DNA of 64,000 nt, taken from Hymenoscyphus infarciens (lineage: Eukaryota > Ascomycota > Leotiomycetes > Helotiales > Helotiaceae). The DNA is taken from assembly GCA_001414345.1 (NCBI GenBank), contig LLCB01000016.1:303528-367527 (forward strand), given 5' to 3'. Below the pieces are notes generated by a model. It was given only the letters and a program-made list of their open reading frames with translations. It was not told the DNA's origin and did not search any database. Position numbers and translations under genes: made by a program. Positions 14,725-49,442 of this stretch are shown piece by piece. The number at the start of each line of letters is the position of its first letter. The first letter of the stretch is position 1.

Positions 14725-17687
14725 ATGTCATTGCGTTCTCCCAAATCACCACGGGCACCTCTGTCACCTCTTAGATCTCCCACCAACTTCTCCCACCGGG
14801 GCTTCCAACCCCTCGACAACAACGATAGCGAAAGCGATATGGGCTACGATTCGAATATCCAGATGCAGGCCATCCCACGACGTTCGGGTTCTTCGACGGG
14901 TGCTCGAAAGCCCGGCGAAGGCACAAACCTCCCCCAAGACTTCTCGACAGCAAACACATTCAAGAATGAAGAGAAGAAGGGCTTTTTCAAACGCGGTCCA
15001 AAGGGTAGACGAAAGGACCCGAAAGCACCAAAGCCCACCACAAGAGTCAACACAGATGGCGAGGAGGTCGCGATAAATGCCATTGGAAGATTCTACAAGA
15101 AAATCGTCAACTTCTCGGTCGTAACCCGATATTTTGTCTACGTCCTGCCGGTGGGAAGTGCTCTAGCAGTCCCAGTTGTCTACTACGCAGTAACAAACAA
15201 GGATGATTATATTACCAATGCCATTGGAGTCAGAACATATCTCTTCTTCCTCTGGCTCGAAATTGTCTGGTTATCACTCTGGATATCGAAGCTCATGGCC
15301 AAGTTCGTCCCTTGGTTGTTTATGACTTTGATTGGAGTGGTCAGTTCGGGTACCAAAAAGTATGCTCTCATCCTGAAGGCAGTGGAAATTGAGCTCAGTT
15401 TGGTCGGTTGGGCTGTGACTTCTTTGCTTACCTTTACGGCCCTTACCTCGGATACGCTCAACGGTCGAAATAAAGATCCCTTACCTCCCGGTGTCGTAAG
15501 GGACCCAAAGTGGCTTACTATCACGGCACACATCCTTGTACCGCTGCTTATTGCCAGTTTGCTCTTGCTTGGAGAGAAAATGGTCATCCAACTTATCAGT
15601 ATAAATTACCATCGACGTTCATTCGACCAGAGAATCAAGGAATCGAAGCATACCATACACCTACTCGGTCTCCTTTATGATGCATCTCGGACTCTGTTCC
15701 CGACATACTGCCCAGAGTTTGCTGAAGAAGACTATATCATCAACGACACCATCGAGGCTGTTCTTGCAAAGACTGGACATCGCCGAAATGGTTCCAATAC
15801 ACCTCTCAAGGTTCTCGGAGACATCGGGCGTGTGGGAGATAAAGTTACTTCTATGTTTGGAAACATCGCATCTGAAATCACGGGCAAACAAGTCTTCAAT
15901 CCCACTTCCGCTCACTCGGTTGTCATAGAAGCTTTGGAGAAGAACAAGTCTTCCGAGGCACTCGCCCGAAGACTTTGGATGTCATTTGTGGTGGAGGGTA
16001 AGGATTCGCTATATGCCGAAGATCTCGAAGAAGTTCTTGGTCCATCAAGACGTGATGAGGCCGAGGAAGCTTTCAATGCTTTGGATGGTGATGGAAACGG
16101 CGATATTAGTTTGGAGGAAATGATTATGAAGGTTGTCGAGGTTGGTCGTGACCGAAAGGCCATTGCCGCAAGTATGCATGATGTTGGTCAGGCCATTGGA
16201 GTTTTGGACAACATTCTTACATGGATACTGCTTGTTATCATCGTCTTCATCTTTGGTAAGTTCCTGTTGTCCCGCAGAAGAGACCTCCTGCTAACAATTT
16301 TTTAGTTGCATTCCAAAACACCAGTTTCCTCACAACACTCGCGACGGCCGGTACAACTCTACTCTCCCTGTCTTTCGTCTTTGCCGCTACTACGCAAGAG
16401 TTCCTTGGAAGTTGCATTTTCCTCTTCGTCAAGCATCCATTCGATGTCGGTGATCGTGTTGACATTATTGGACCCGACGTCCAACATCTCGTGGTTGAAC
16501 AAATCTCATTACTTTACACCTTGTTTAAGCGAATCGACAACATGAAAATGGTACAGGTTCCCAACATCGTACTCAACAACTTGTGGGTTGAAAATGTAAC
16601 CCGGTCCAAGGCGATGAAGGAACAACTCGAAATGGGAATTTCCTTTGATACTTCGCTCGAGGATATGGAACTTCTCCGTATCGAGATGGAAAATTTCGTT
16701 CGCCACCCCGACAATGCCCGCGATTTCCAACCAGACTTTACTCTTGAAGCTGCTGGAGTTGGTAACATGGACAAACTTGTGCTCAAGATTGAGATTTGCC
16801 ACAAATCCAACTGGCACAACGAGACTGTTCGTGCTGCCCGTCGATCGAAATTTATGTGTGCTCTTGTCATTGCTCTCCGAAAGGTTCCTATCTACGCACC
16901 AGGTGGAGGTGGAGAACCTCTTGGAGGTCCTACGAACCCAGGATACAGCGTAGCGATTTCGGATGCCTTGGCTGCTGAAGCACGAGACAAAGCCAAGGCT
17001 GCCAAAGAGGCTAAGCGCCTTGTACCAGCAGCTACCAAGGATGTTGTAGGCCACGAGGAAGATGCAGCTGACGCCATGAACAGTCGTAACCCATTATCCG
17101 ATGCCGCACATGCTGGCGAAGATGAGAGAACATTGAGCGGTAGCCGAGAGGATAGCGAGGACCGAAAACGCAGTATGGAAATCGAACAACTTCGTGACGG
17201 ATTGAAGAAGACCAAGTCTAACCGCGGTGTCCGAAGAGCTGGTGATCACATCCCAGACGCACCAGCCTCGAGTGCACCAAATATCAGTGTCACCGGACCA
17301 GCTGCATACCAAACATACCAAACAACCGGGTATGGCAGCGGAGAAATCCTAGACGAGGAAGCGGAAATGGGAATTCATCAGACTTCTTCCACAGGTCCAT
17401 TAGGCGGAACAGTATCAGATAACTTCGGAGCACAACCCTCAGCCGGTGGTTACAGTATCTACCCTCCGCCAGGACAACCACAATACCAGCCGCAATACCC
17501 ACCACAAGCTCAACCAATCGGCCTACATCCTTTAGGAAGTAGTCCCTCTCAACAGCCAACGCCGCCTCCACCCCAAGGACGATCACGCAAATTGAGCTTG
17601 AGCGTTCGACCGGGTGGCGGTAATGCTTCTGGTGGAAATAAGGGATCGGGAGCTGGATCCAGTGGCTCGCGTGATGAGTACTCATGA
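14725..17687 (+). CDS. MscS-family mechanosensitive ion channel with EF hand
   Basis: A membrane channel of the fungal/plant MscS-like class (fission yeast Msy1/Msy2 type), thought to release ions and control calcium under hypo-osmotic stress, usually in ER or plasma membrane. Exons 14725-16255 and 16306-17687 give 970 residues. Residues 1-120 are a basic, disordered cytoplasmic part. Several membrane segments lie at about 130-310 (for example FVYVLPVGSALAVPVVYYAV and ILVPLLIASLLLLGE). An EF-hand loop with D454, D456, N458, D460 and E465 follows (LDGDGNGDISLEE). The pore helix and MscS core are encoded around the intron: VLDNILTWILLVIIVFIFG, TAGTTLLSLSFVFAATTQEF, HPFDVGDRVDI and VQVPNIVLNNLWVENVTRSK. 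The C-terminal 200 residues are Pro/Gln/Ser-rich. Gene context gives no extra hint. Confidence 0.93.
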
Positions 17688-24396: not shown

Positions 24397-24550
24397 TCTC
24401 TCAGGCGCGAGTCGAACGCGCGACTATGACCCTGCCCGTTAGTAAACGCTAAACACATGGATTTGAGTGTGGGAAGTCTTTAAACTTACCATTCCGGTAT
24501 GACTGAAACAATTACAGCCGGACGCCATAAACCAACTAGACGACCGAGAG
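24397..24550 (-). tRNA. tRNA-Tyr (anticodon GUA), normal intron plus an extra insertion
   Basis: Acceptor strands CTCTCGG (24550-24544) and CTGAGAG (24404-24398) pair with one G-U, followed by discriminator A (24397). The D arm reads TCGTCTAGTTGG. Anticodon stem TCCGG (24522-24518), loop CT-GTA-A with GUA at 24515-24513, a 13-base intron (24511-24499) at the canonical 37/38 site, then CCGGA (24497-24493). The T arm GCGCG-TTCGACT-CGCGC (24421-24405) is perfect. The 5' half, the tyrosine anticodon and the short intron closely match yeast tRNA-Tyr as I remember it. Abnormally, 71 bases separate the anticodon stem from the T stem instead of about five; 24489-24432 look like a GT-AG intron (GTAAGT, TTTACTAAC, GGGCAG). 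A T7 run lies 16 bases downstream. It could be functional or a disrupted pseudogene. Confidence 0.75.
24432..24489 (-). other. Spliceosomal-intron-like insertion in the tRNA variable region
   Basis: Minus-strand sequence begins GTAAGT, contains the perfect branch consensus TACTAAC and ends GGGCAG, 58 bases in all, a typical size for fungal introns. It lies between anticodon stem and T arm, where eukaryotic nuclear tRNA genes do not normally carry introns. Removing it leaves a 13-base variable region. Confidence 0.5.
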
Positions 24551-28634: not shown

Positions 28635-31600
28635 ATGATCTCGATACGGGAAAAATGTCGCCCCAAACACCAAGTACTCATTCTCAAGTGCTATCCCAGG
28701 ACGACCAAGGGCGCAGTTGATGTCAAGCCCAATTCCAGCGAACTCAGCTATCTCCTTTACTATGCGACGACGCGTCGGAGCAAGGTGCAGAAGGTGGGTG
28801 CCTTCCTGGAGAAGAAGACAGCCAGTGATGTTTGGCGAGCAAGAATAGGGTATGTAGAGAAGGCGTTTTTATGCTGCATGCATACATAATCTGGTGGGCC
28901 TGCTAATCAGGTCGATGTATAGAAATGTTCAAGTCACCCTCCAAATCCTCGAAGGCATGATCGAAAAGGCTCCCCGAGACCTCCCACTCTATGCGAATTA
29001 TGTCCTCAAGATTCTTGTCATCATACTGCGATCGCGCGATATTACCATGGTGGAATCCTCACTCCCGACCTTTAAAGCATTCTGCGATCACCACGATGGT
29101 GCCTCTCTTTCGGCTGACCAGGAATACCTACACCAGTACGAGGAAATTGTCAAAATATACTCCTCCTTTGCCGCACCAAACCCACCACCGACGAAGCCTC
29201 CGATCAGTGCACCAGTTGCCATACGATGGAGAAATGTGGGGTTACAGGCAATCAATAGTGTGGCATCCTCAGAAGCGTTGGCCTCCCTAGCTGGGAAACA
29301 GCTGAATGTGATAATCCCGATGGTGTTGGAAAATCTCTGGACGGATAACGAGGAATTGGTGGGGATTTTGGAGACAAGGGTTCAGCGAGAAGTGAAGACT
29401 GACGCGGAGAAGACATTATTGAAGAGAAGAATCAGTAATGCTACGGTTCAGACGGTTGATACCACTGCTGAGGATAATGCTGCCGCTCTTTCTGCCACAA
29501 CCGCCGATGCAGACAAACTTGCAGAGGAAAACATTGGTGTTTTAGCTATGCAATGTTTAAAACAAATCTTCATTGTACCCAACCGGACCCAGATACATGG
29601 AGCGACGACAGCCACTTTGTCTTTTATCGCTGAACACGTTGCTCAAAGTGCGACGAATGAGAAGGCAGATGGGAATCGCTACTGTGGCTGGGCAACTAGA
29701 ATATTCGAAATGATTGCCCAATGGACTCCGGTCCAGGATCGATATGTCATTTTGGTCACTGCGATGGACGTTTTGGTGCGAAGCCCGGTGGTGGAGGAGC
29801 ACCTACAAGAGCAATTGGTGTTTGCGACAATGATAGATTCGCTATTGAAATCGGAAACGATCAATCTCATTGGCTTGAGTGTGATGGACGTTTTGCTTGG
29901 CCTGATAAAGCATGTGGTGAAGCTCCTTCAGTTGAGCGGAAATCCCCTAGAATCTACCAAAACCGGAAAAGGAGAGTCGCCTGAGCTGGGTGTGTCAAAA
30001 CCGAGTCCTTTAAGAAGAGAACTTTTGGCACGTCTCCAAAATTGCGTTGGTCATTTGGCCACACATGTTTACTATGGCGATCAAATATCCGACATGGTCT
30101 CTGCGCTTCTTATGCGATTAAAACCTTCGCCATCTTCAACTGCCACTACGATTGCCTCGATCGAAAACCCCAACCCTGCTTCTTTGGGCTCTGTCAATGA
30201 CTTGCTCGACGATACCAGGACTGACGGGTTCTTTTTGTTTGGTACTGCTAAGGTTAAAGCTTTGGAGGCCATCAAGGCAATTCTTCTTGTTGCAAGCCAC
30301 CGGAAAAATGTTGTTGGTGGAGCGAGTCTAGGGCGAAGCCCCGTTCCCATCAAAGTCTGGGAAGGTACCCAATGGCTACTGAGAGATAATGATATCAGAG
30401 TGAGAAAGGCCTACATTGATGCATTCTCAACTTGGTTAGAGACCGAGACCACAAAAGCTCATCTCCGTGTACCGGATGAGAAGCCAAAATTATCACCGAA
30501 ACTCTCACCTCGGAACGGACAGAACAATTCTTCCACAAAGCTCTCAAAGCGCGTGGTATCCAACGCATCCCAGAAGGAGAAAACTAGCCAACCACCAAGG
30601 ACTACTTTCCTGGAGCTCCTCCATCTCGCAATCTACGAAAACTCCCTTCAGTTTGTTGATAGCGAATCGGATTTCGTTCTGTTGCATTTCTTGCTTGCCA
30701 ACCTCGTCAAGAAATTAGGGGTGAACGCCGTTAAAAGTGGACTACCTATGATTTACCGACTTCAAGAGGACATTTTAGAGGCAGAAACACCTATAGCAAA
30801 AATAAGAATGGGGAGTCTCTGCCACGGATACTTCTGGATATTGAGCGAGCTGTTCGATTTTGATACATCTCCTGTGGGCCAAGTGATTCACGAAGAAATA
30901 CATCGACGACGAAGTAAGATGTTCTGGGTCGATAGGATTTGTCTGCCGCCAGTCACTATCAGTAGAATCGGGACTCCTGGAACGAGCACACCAGAAAAAG
31001 CACTTCCTATGGAGAAGGTAGAGTCTGAGGGCCTCACTCCTTTTGATGATCGATTTGAAATGGTGAAACTCATCTCACTTTCCTATGCAGAATCCTTGAC
31101 GGTATCACCAGCAATCAGTCCTCCAACTTCACCTGGTCGGTCGTTTACCAACCCGATACTTAACACCAGCCCTTCTGCTATGCAAGATGTTCAATTACCA
31201 GAGAAGGCCAAAGACCAGATGATGTCAGAGTGGAACAAGGAGGAAGTTATTGCTCTTGCCCAGGAAGGAAGCAAGTCTGTCTCCCTCAATGGATCAAAAT
31301 CTGGCACAAATGCGACTCGACACCGAAAATACCTTGCCGTCAACGGTGATATGAATACTGGGGAGACTAATAGTCGAACACAATCACCTCCTGGTGGCAT
31401 CTTAACTCATCACCAACACCGCAAGCCGGACACTTCGTATGGACTTCTTGGCGGTCTTTCTGGGCTGCACAATCTCAGGAAAGGAAGCGGAAATTCAGGG
31501 TCGCCTGCAAGTGACTCAAGTCGCAATTCTGTCACAAGGGTAGACCATCTCAAGAAAATTCTCTCTGGTCAAGCAGACGCTCCACCAAGAACCCGAGGAG

Positions 31601-39623: not shown

Positions 39624-40712
39624 CTACTCCCACCGATCCATCCCTCTCAATTGATCCTCCCCCAAAATCTCAAACTTCTTCCATCTCGTATTCTCCCTCG
39701 CCGCCTCGACCAAATACCCCGTCACCAAATGATGCAGACGAGCGGCCCACTGAAGAGTTTCATATCTCACCCCCTTCTGTCTAGCCACGGAGATTCCCGC
39801 TGCTTTGTTTTTCCCAGCTAGATTGTACCAGTCCACCTCCTTGTGGATGAGGAATACTTCTTGGGCGTTGGGGAAGGTGGATTTGATTCTCAAGATGAAA
39901 TTTTGATAGGATGAATGTTGGGTTAGGTCGAGACTGTTGAATCCCCAAGCAAAGGGGAGGGCGATGGAAAGGATGTCTTCTGTCCCGAGGAGATGAGGGT
40001 CCTCGGTGAAATCTAGGAAGGAGGGCATGTGACGGGTTTGCGTGATTAGGAGTGTGTCTTTTTCTTTGAGGAATTGGATTCCGGGGGTGTGCATTTTGAA
40101 GCGTGAACAGAGCTGGGTTGGGGAGATGAAATATTTGTCGGTTGGTATGTCTGGTGTTCTGGTTGAGAGACAGGTGCTTGTGTTTCTAGAGAGGCTTTCT
40201 CTTCGTGATTCGGGGGAAGCTTCGAATACTGCGTAGCGGTTGGCGTAGTCGCATAGTCGCTGGGAATCTTTGCTGATGTCGGTTACTCCCCATATTATCT
40301 TGTTTGGGGAAGACTCTTCATCGGATTCTTCCTCGGTCTCCTCATTGGAATCTTCTCCGGGAGTGGTTTGGGAGACTAGAAAACCGATAGGATCTATCCG
40401 TACGTCTATTAATTGAGGACCCGGGATGGCGCTCTTCCATATCTTGTGTCTAATTTCTGCGGGGAAATTTGCAAACTGAGGAAATTTGGGATACCGTCGC
40501 GTTTTGGCCCCGGTTCTGTGGGAGGTTGTTAGAATGTTATAGAGTTGGTAAGATGAGGTTTGTAGTTACTTGTAGAGTTGTTTTGCACGCTTTTTATCGT
40601 GGACGAGAGAGCGGCCTAGCTCGATTGCGTATGCGAGTTTTGGTGGCATGTCGCATACCTCCTCTTCCAGCTTGGGCTCCAAAGGATCCATGCTCTTGTT
40701 GTTTGGTGACAT
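39624..40712 (-). CDS. 2EXR-domain protein
   Basis: A member of the fungal 2EXR family, often expanded in plant-associated ascomycetes and of unknown function. Exons 40570-40712 and 39624-40515 give 344 residues. The intron starts GTAACT and ends CCACAG, joining phase 2. The domain begins just after the junction: FPQFANFPAEIRHKIWKSAI, then PGPQLIDVRID, an acidic insert (EETEEESDEESSP) and RESLSRNTSTCL, which is where 2EXR proteins usually describe an 'ex-resident arginine' motif. The C-terminal half has no motif I can name. The start is the ATG giving MSPNNKSMDPL; a further upstream in-frame start is possible. Repeat clusters with GCTTACTCG motifs lie on both sides in opposite orientation. 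Confidence 0.85.
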
Positions 40713-48438: not shown

Positions 48439-49047
48439 ATGGCACAAGGATTCTTCCAAAGACTCAGTACCAAGTTCTTCAGAGCAACCTCAGCGAAAGA
48501 AAGAGAAGCCCTTGCGATGTATGAAGAAACTTGCTGGTCGACTCTAGAAGGAGGATCGGACCTCAGTTCGGAATCAGAGTCCTTCAAGCTATTTCCCCCC
48601 ACCAAAAGCACTTCTCCAGACAACAATATCTGGGATGTGCTCACGGAAGTGAGAGGGGAGATACTTTATGATTTCGATCAACAAGTAGACTTTTGGGATG
48701 TCGACCAAGCATCCTTTACTTATCCTTACCTTTCACTGTTGTGTTTCTTTAGAGAGTATGAAGTTACCTACTGGGAGACTGGCTTGGAAGTGGAGATCAC
48801 TGATGGTTCGGATTTCTGGGATGTCATTGACCTTGGCAGTCATTACGCGCAAGACTTGGAATTGTTTTTGCGTAGGCAATTTGAAGATGTAAAAACGGAC
48901 AATGGCTACGTAAGACGAGGTGTTGACTATACCACGGCTGCTAATGGTCCAGTGGATGTTCTAAACACGGGAGATATCGCAGATTCGTTGGAACGTTATT
49001 TGGTTTGGAGTCCCGTGTCTGATGAGGGACCTGATTTGTGGGTTTGA
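48439..49047 (+). CDS. Unknown protein (orphan ORF beside AT block)
   Basis: Single-exon frame of 202 residues beginning MAQGFFQRLSTKFFRATSAK. It is acidic and rich in Trp and Tyr, with a repeated F-W-D-V element (NNIWDVLTEV, VDFWDVDQAS, GSDFWDVIDL). There is no signal peptide or membrane segment. No family is recognised. The three WDV elements are spaced about 28 and 40 residues apart and may be degenerate internal repeats. It lies alone between an AT-rich block and the DUF1996 gene, a setting common for lineage-specific genes. Confidence 0.55.
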   Translation: MAQGFFQRLSTKFFRATSAKEREALAMYEETCWSTLEGGSDLSSESESFKLFPPTKSTSPDNNIWDVLTEVRGEILYDFDQQVDFWDVDQASFTYPYLSLLCFFREYEVTYWETGLEVEITDGSDFWDVIDLGSHYAQDLELFLRRQFEDVKTDNGYVRRGVDYTTAANGPVDVLNTGDIADSLERYLVWSPVSDEGPDLWV

Positions 49048-49442
49048 AGACATGGTCATGGACAAAGTGAAATCTTTGCTTCAATGAGACACATAGGCCA
49101 AAGTATGTTGGTCAAGTGTGGTTAGCGAAGCGACTCCCCTTTACCACCCCTGTAAAGGAATCCAGCCTTACTCTAAATATCAAGATTTAATAAAATACTT
49201 TCACGCTCATAATTCACAATGACACTTTGACATGCTAATCCTGAACGAAATGAATTGTATACAAGACAACTAATTACTTTCACTTAGGGAAGGGAATGTA
49301 ACTCGGCACTAATCTCAAAGCCCCCTGCTTCAGAAACGATATTCTTCTTCAGAACATCAACTTGTTCAAACATTCTAATTCAGCGAGCGTGTCCACAAGG
49401 GTACCAGTCAAGGTCTAGCTCCACTTCATGAGCAATACTGCT
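49048..49442. other. Intergenic spacer between convergent genes
   Basis: 3' UTRs of two convergent genes; nothing else seen. Confidence 0.4.

Follow-up and report, generated by a model that had tools for sequence, protein, structure and literature searches.

At least 25 nuclear tRNA genes in the genome of the fungus Hymenoscyphus infarciens are interrupted by insertions that, judged from their sequence, are very probably U2-type spliceosomal introns residing in genes transcribed by RNA polymerase III (Pol III). One of them, a tRNA-Tyr gene, lies in the window, the whole stretch of 64,000 nucleotides that was analysed, whose EFR3 and MscS-type proteins are each 83% identical to those of Hymenoscyphus fraxineus, the nearest named source. 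The first-pass annotation had offered a pre-mRNA-type intron in a Pol III gene as one of three options for this gene, next to a pseudogene and a novel processing route, and the evidence assembled here strongly favours the first. The 25 genes, referred to below as the strong set (Table 1), represent about 12 tRNA species by our naming and eight amino acids; the isotype names rest on ARAGORN and on our reading of anticodons and paralogues. Their anatomy, the exact empty sites in paralogues, the kept splice signals, the restored stems and the recurrence of the insertions are all observed directly in the assembly.

Table 1. Features of the interrupted tRNA-Tyr gene in the window (positions of the window) and members of the strong set with their insertion sites in tRNA numbering. 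Contig labels are those of this analysis; the window's gene sits on C69.
Feature	Contig	Position	Strand	Site	Remark
tRNA-Tyr(GTA) gene with two introns of different kinds	C69	24397-24550	minus		154 bp
First part, acceptor 5' strand to position 46	C69	24490-24550	minus		includes the 37/38 intron
Ordinary tRNA intron, 13 nt, TTGTTTCAGTCAT	C69	24499-24511	minus	37/38	ARAGORN i(40,13) and the sequence itself
Spliceosomal-type intron, 66 nt	C69	24424-24489	minus	46/47	exact empty site in the C198 paralogue
5' splice site GTAAGT	C69	24484-24489	minus
Branch-site motif TACTAAC	C69	24438-24444	minus		presumed branch A 24439, 15 nt from the 3' end
3' splice site TAG (CATAG)	C69	24424-24426	minus		not the CAG at 24432-24434
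Last exon, positions 47-73	C69	24397-24423	minus		acceptor 3' strand, A73
T7 run, presumed Pol III terminator	C69	24375-24381	minus		starts 16 nt downstream of the gene
Tyr	C69, C481, C364			46/47
Gly-GCC	C303, C80, C16			52/53
Gly(TCC) per ARAGORN, Trp(CCA)-like by eye	C730			52/53
Pro-AGG	C55, C494			53/54
Ser-GCT	C12, C715			57/58	ARAGORN names C715 Val
Arg-CCG	C49			58/59
Phe	C270, C336, C732, C734, C397			59/60	site from T loop TTCGATC; ARAGORN names C734 Thr
Ser-AGA	C158, C721			60/61
Ser-GCT	C723, C287			60/61
Asp	C41			60/61
Thr-TGT	C270			64/65
Thr-CGT	C267			12/13
Arg-TCT (L058)	C108	~85845-85970	minus	18/19	contig positions; D loop; GC-AG, GCTAGT...AATTAAC...AACAG

In the window, no tRNA is reported by ARAGORN with introns switched off or by Rfam at cut-off. 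The raw Tyr gene, for which a covariance-model check had been proposed, is missed by the Rfam tRNA model at cut-off, and ARAGORN with introns allowed miscalls it as tRNA-Ser(act). Most of what had been read from the letters proved correct: the acceptor ends pair on the minus strand (7/7), the anticodon is GTA, the short intron at 37/38 is of the standard kind, the T arm is perfect (GCGCG TTCGACT CGCGC, stem 5/5), a T run follows downstream, and 71 bases stand in place of the usual five of the variable loop. Among the three intron signals that had been named, GTAAGT and TACTAAC hold, but the CAG ending at 24432 is not the end of the intron, whose true 3' end lies 8 bases further, at 24424. This boundary is set by the uninterrupted Tyr paralogue on C198, which provides an exact empty site: it reads CCGGAATG followed directly by TCGCGCG, that is, the window's gene minus 24424-24489. 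Removal of these 66 nt leaves the same five-base variable loop as in the paralogue, ATGTC, while a cut at CAG would leave 13 bases instead of five. With the 66 nt taken out, ARAGORN calls tRNA-Tyr(gta) with a 13-nt intron. The combination of a GT start, an AG end and a correctly spaced CT[AG]A[CT] motif occurs in a fraction of 7.75e-5 of 400,000 length-matched stretches of the window.

A search of the assembly (65.6 Mb, 742 contigs) with the whole Tyr gene as query retrieved four tRNA-Tyr genes, three of which (C69, C481, C364) are interrupted at the same site and one of which (C198) is intact; the several intact Tyr genes and the non-conserved copy that the first-pass annotation had associated with a pseudogene are thus not what this search found. 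The three introns are 66, 59 and 54 nt long, respectively. Their alignment, which had been suggested as a check, shows that the splice signals are kept and that the interiors have diverged to 45-48% identity; the remainder of the genes is 98-100% identical, and the 61-nt first part is the same in all three. The two exon differences of the C364 gene form a compensatory pair in the T stem (GCGCG/CGCGC to GCGTG/CACGC).

To find further interrupted genes we used the tRNA model, A-box and B-box words and tRNA DNA queries, none of which draws on an intron signal. Run over the whole genome, the Rfam tRNA model started from 3357 first-look candidates, of which 63 were scored; its matches, among them mitochondrial tRNAs, number 55 at E 0.001 and rise to 63 at E 10, and several tRNA species are absent from them. 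At cut-off, only 1 of 20 interrupted loci was recovered. For Gly-GCC, three uninterrupted genes were accompanied by three weak Rfam matches of 150-152 nt carrying GTAAG...CTCTAAC...TAG at 52/53. The B-box word GGTTCGAWTCC matched 59 times as against 22 for the reversed control; 18 of these were places already known and the other 41 were all examined. Three A-box words with up to three mismatches gave 16, 24 and 18 matches (controls 19, 6 and 7), all of which were examined except for 2, 1 and 1 places, respectively. The pattern TAGCTCAGTTGGTAGAGCG gave 16 matches as against 19 in the controls, five of the 16 being Phe genes, and TGGYCWAGTTGGTTAWGGC gave 68 as against 183, with 10 of the 68 examined. 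The word GGTTCGASYCC had 108 matches versus 81 for its reversed control; among the matches listed, eight that were examined yielded two uninterrupted Asn genes and 40 yielded two uninterrupted Glu genes, four listed places were shared with the TGGYCWAGTTGGTTAWGGC search, and the remainder, many of them tandem repeats, were left out. Tandem repeats of 11 nt, including GGTTCGACTCC, occur on C9, C75, C96, C190, C310, C393 and other contigs and are apparently unrelated to tRNA genes.

Scanning of 196 nuclear loci returned 69 distinct ARAGORN calls beyond the list of interrupted genes. One of these, C108, is itself interrupted, and three (L059 on C692, L091 on C270 and L092 on C304) look degenerate or organellar; an uninterrupted Pro gene on C208 was dropped by the census filter. 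Roughly one in four of the about 90 nuclear tRNA genes in this incomplete census, which recognised no nuclear Cys gene, is thus interrupted. In the examined stretches of the mitochondrial contig, C340, all tRNAs were called without introns, as expected since there is no spliceosome in that compartment.

The strong-set introns are 49-70 nt long (median 52, n=25), and 24 have GT-AG ends, the Arg-TCT gene on C108 being the single GC-AG case. The 5' site reads GTAAGT in 16 introns, GTAAGC in three, GTATGT in two and GTTAGT, GTACAT, GTAGGT or GCTAGT in one each, and the 3' site is TAG in 21 and CAG in four. Among the 24 GT-AG introns, 23 have a branch motif, CT[AG]A[CT], at a distance of 10-15 nt from the end, as compared to 5% of shuffled interiors, and the GC-AG intron has TTAAC at 11 nt; the Pro-AGG intron on C494 is the sole member of the strong set without a branch consensus. 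Two protein-coding introns of the window could be placed by homologous proteins, their ends being deduced from the frames in which the aligned pieces are read: GTAAGT...TGCTAAC...TTTAG at 16256-16305 and GTATGT...TGCTAAT...TATAG at 28850-28922. As both have the same build as the introns in the tRNA genes, no special machine need be invoked for the latter.

Removal of the intron restores the tRNA stems: in all 25 genes the acceptor then pairs 7/7 and the T stem 5/5. Before removal, the T stem is incomplete in every one of the 20 genes interrupted in the T arm. ARAGORN called 5 of 25 raw sequences and all 25 after splicing (a list that includes a doubtful Leu-like gene, described below, and lacks Arg C108). 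ARAGORN alone cannot fix the junction, however, because it still called 71 of 150 controls with shifted cuts. For Tyr, Gly-GCC, Pro-AGG, Ser-AGA, Asp and Arg-TCT, the ends of the intron follow from uninterrupted paralogues. Repeats at the junction permit only one placement, with GT-AG ends, for 12 introns and two to four for 13 (24 strong-set introns plus the Leu-like one), and three for Arg C108; in each ambiguous case exactly one placement has GT-AG ends, or GC-AG in C108. Compared with its uninterrupted paralogue, the Arg gene on C108 has changes in both acceptor strands with all seven pairs kept (GCCGGGC/GTTCGGT versus GCTCGGC/GTCGAGT). Minimum-energy folds of the RNA gave no clean cloverleaves for raw and spliced genes alike and were therefore set aside as evidence.

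The insertions are not spread evenly over the genes: 20 of 25 fall in the T arm, at positions 52-65 over the B box, and several genes share a site. This clustering may reflect a bias of insertion or tolerance by selection. The B box is split by introns at 57/58 to 60/61 and the A box by those at 12/13 and 18/19. At 52/53 the intron ends in AG and is directly followed by GTTCGA, which re-creates the beginning of the B box within the gene. Pol III stops at T runs, and a run of at least four T occurs within 60 nt downstream of all 25 strong genes as against 30% of window 60-mers, a run of at least five in 24 of 25 (background 9%). Inside the introns, T4 is found once in 25 where shuffles predict 5.2 (P 0.02), and T5 is not found where 1.4 are expected. 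The placement of the T runs together with the avoidance of T4 within introns is consistent with transcription by Pol III, to which it lends modest support.

Introns at the same site are 41-62% identical in their interiors, which compares with a mean of 47 (s.d. 5, maximum 61) between isotypes; outside these introns, the genes are 83-100% identical. The flanks of same-site genes agree to 44-67% on the 5' side and 40-70% on the 3' side, random window stretches to 46% (s.d. 5). These flank identities would fit both one old gain followed by divergence and repeated gain, either of which may account for the shared sites. Interrupted paralogues of Tyr, Pro-AGG and Ser-AGA have nearly or fully identical exons, and those of Tyr and Pro also share identical 37/38 introns; their spliceosomal introns and most of their flanks are near background similarity. 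This pattern may stem from gene conversion or from introns having been gained repeatedly at one site.

A canonical 37/38 tRNA intron can be set aside, as the insertions sit instead at 12/13, 18/19, 46/47, 52/53, 53/54, 57/58, 58/59, 59/60, 60/61 and 64/65. Like canonical introns, they occur in nuclear tRNA genes, but they differ from them in position, in having GT-AG ends and a branch site, and in the machine presumed to remove them. A bulge-helix-bulge has a central helix of 4 bp that is flanked at the splice sites by two bulges of 3 nt. If the tRNA-splicing endonuclease were relaxed in this fungus, it might cut non-canonical introns of this type, and the GT-AG appearance would be incidental. 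The enzyme must be active here, because 19 of the 24 strong genes that were run in spliced form carry a 37/38 intron as well according to ARAGORN; moreover, non-canonical tRNA introns are described for a red alga, nucleomorphs and archaea in the available parts of PMC4090602 and PMC3978253. Yet in the 25 introns inspected (without Arg C108) the central helix is never complete, with at most three of four pairs at the junction plus or minus one base, and the splice-end and branch motifs are kept even though the endonuclease would not require them. We therefore regard excision by a relaxed endonuclease as very unlikely.

That the insertions sit in pseudogenes, tRNA copies that the cell can spare and has ceased to express, would agree with the uninterrupted copies present for seven of the interrupted species, but is highly improbable in view of the condition of the genes. 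Their exons are intact, with compensatory changes in the T stem of Tyr C364 and the acceptor of Arg C108, their T runs are kept, and their splice signals persist while the interiors drift. Furthermore, with a Phe gene as DNA query, five tRNA-Phe genes were found and all of them are interrupted at one site, which argues against pseudogenes. The T-arm clustering, with its sites shared by several genes, could also be expected of a mobile or self-splicing element whose recent copies merely mimic introns. However, the introns share only matches of 9-21 nt, mostly splice and branch motifs, and the whole Tyr gene used as a genome query retrieved Tyr genes only. Group I and group II introns have a catalytic core of hundreds of nucleotides, for which 49-70 nt is too short, and no match to the group I/II Rfam families was obtained in the 20 interrupted loci scanned. 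Recent element copies are thus extremely improbable, while gain of the introns through a mobile element with subsequent divergence may have occurred.

Returning to spliceosomal introns as the preferred reading, we infer from the sequences which polymerase acts, that the spliceosome excises the introns, and in what order the steps occur, as follows. Transcription by Pol III would run through the entire interrupted gene to the downstream T run. In the Tyr transcript, GTAAGT, TACTAAC and CATAG would serve as recognition sites for the spliceosome, whose excision of 66 nt would leave the five-base variable loop. For the genes interrupted in the T arm, spliceosomal excision would have to come first, as the arm can fold only once the intron is gone. 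Processing would then continue in the usual way with RNase P, tRNase Z, CCA addition and, for the 37/38 intron, the tRNA-splicing endonuclease. The Phe intron must be removed, since Phe codons would otherwise be without a tRNA, unless an intact gene is unassembled or was missed. Removal is not strictly required for seven species, for which nine uninterrupted paralogues exist (three for Gly-GCC and one each for Tyr, Pro-AGG, Ser-AGA, Asp, Ser-GCT and Arg-TCT).

Two candidates were left out of the strong set. The class II Leu-like gene at C224:5724-5884 (L055) is not followed by a T run within 60 nt, and its isotype is unclear even once the insertion is taken out; this insertion, GTAAGT...TACTAAT...TTAAG, starts inside the anticodon, and removal would give CAG. 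The Arg(ACG)-like locus at C720:190621-190741 on the minus strand (L066), with the insertion GTAAAT...TTACTAAT...AAAG adjoining GGTTCGA, has an unpaired acceptor and is likely degenerate. In addition, C41:66056-66616 (L071) holds, about 200 bases from the interrupted Asp gene, a degenerate tRNA-Asp-like copy whose B box is intact. Contig C145 carries two tRNA-like sequences with very long anticodon-loop introns, at 40351-40526 on the minus strand (L049) and at about 48902-49263 on the plus strand (L120). We read the anticodon of both as TCA, in agreement with ARAGORN for L049, and they may be suppressor-like, aberrant or pseudogenes.

The nearest precedent is the U6 snRNA gene of fission yeast, likewise a Pol III small-RNA gene with a spliceosomal intron, as far as the available text of PMC10484740 describes it. 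Unlike this snRNA, the present case comprises at least 25 tRNA genes, in which tRNA stems and internal promoter boxes are split. Fungal U3 snoRNA introns also resemble those described here in having GT-AG ends and a branch site near the 3' end (PMC5832005, in its available part). These U3 introns, present in most Pezizomycotina analysed there, have the branch motif RCTRAY 6-36 nt from the end, a range into which the branch motif of the tRNA-gene introns falls as well. The two differ in 3' site preference, the U3 introns having CAG (129 versus 8 TAG according to the same portion of that study) and the tRNA-gene introns TAG (21 versus 4 CAG). According to the available text of that 2017 paper, frequent interruption is known for no small structured RNA other than U3 and U6. 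Introns in the D and T arms, several per tRNA gene, occur in Cyanidioschyzon merolae and the Guillardia theta nucleomorph; those covered by the accessible part of PMC4090602 are of the bulge-helix-bulge type, or of 3-24 nt with unknown mechanism, whereas the introns reported here lack a complete bulge-helix-bulge helix and have full spliceosomal signals. No spliceosomal class figures among the tRNA introns in the available parts of three reviews (PMC4033280, PMC3978253, PMC4090602), and a 2026 review, in its accessible portion, sets tRNA splicing apart from the spliceosome (PMC13149111). No report of spliceosomal introns in tRNA genes was found in the open-licence literature, outside which most subscription papers lie.

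Splicing of tRNA and of mRNA are taught as separate pathways; if removal proceeds as we infer, the two would be joined in a living fungus. The spliceosome would then accept structured, Pol III-made RNAs from genes down to about 120 bp, and the supply of tRNA would become subject to mRNA-type splicing. Interruption of this kind would account for the tRNA genes that standard tools overlook in such genomes, and the introns, as a series in genes that are both very short and highly constrained, bear on how spliceosomal introns are gained. We consider it likely that these insertions represent a further class of tRNA intron, spliceosomal introns in about a quarter of the nuclear tRNA genes found in this lineage of Helotiales, so that translation, at least of Phe codons, would depend directly on a spliceosome that processes Pol III transcripts before the tRNA folds.
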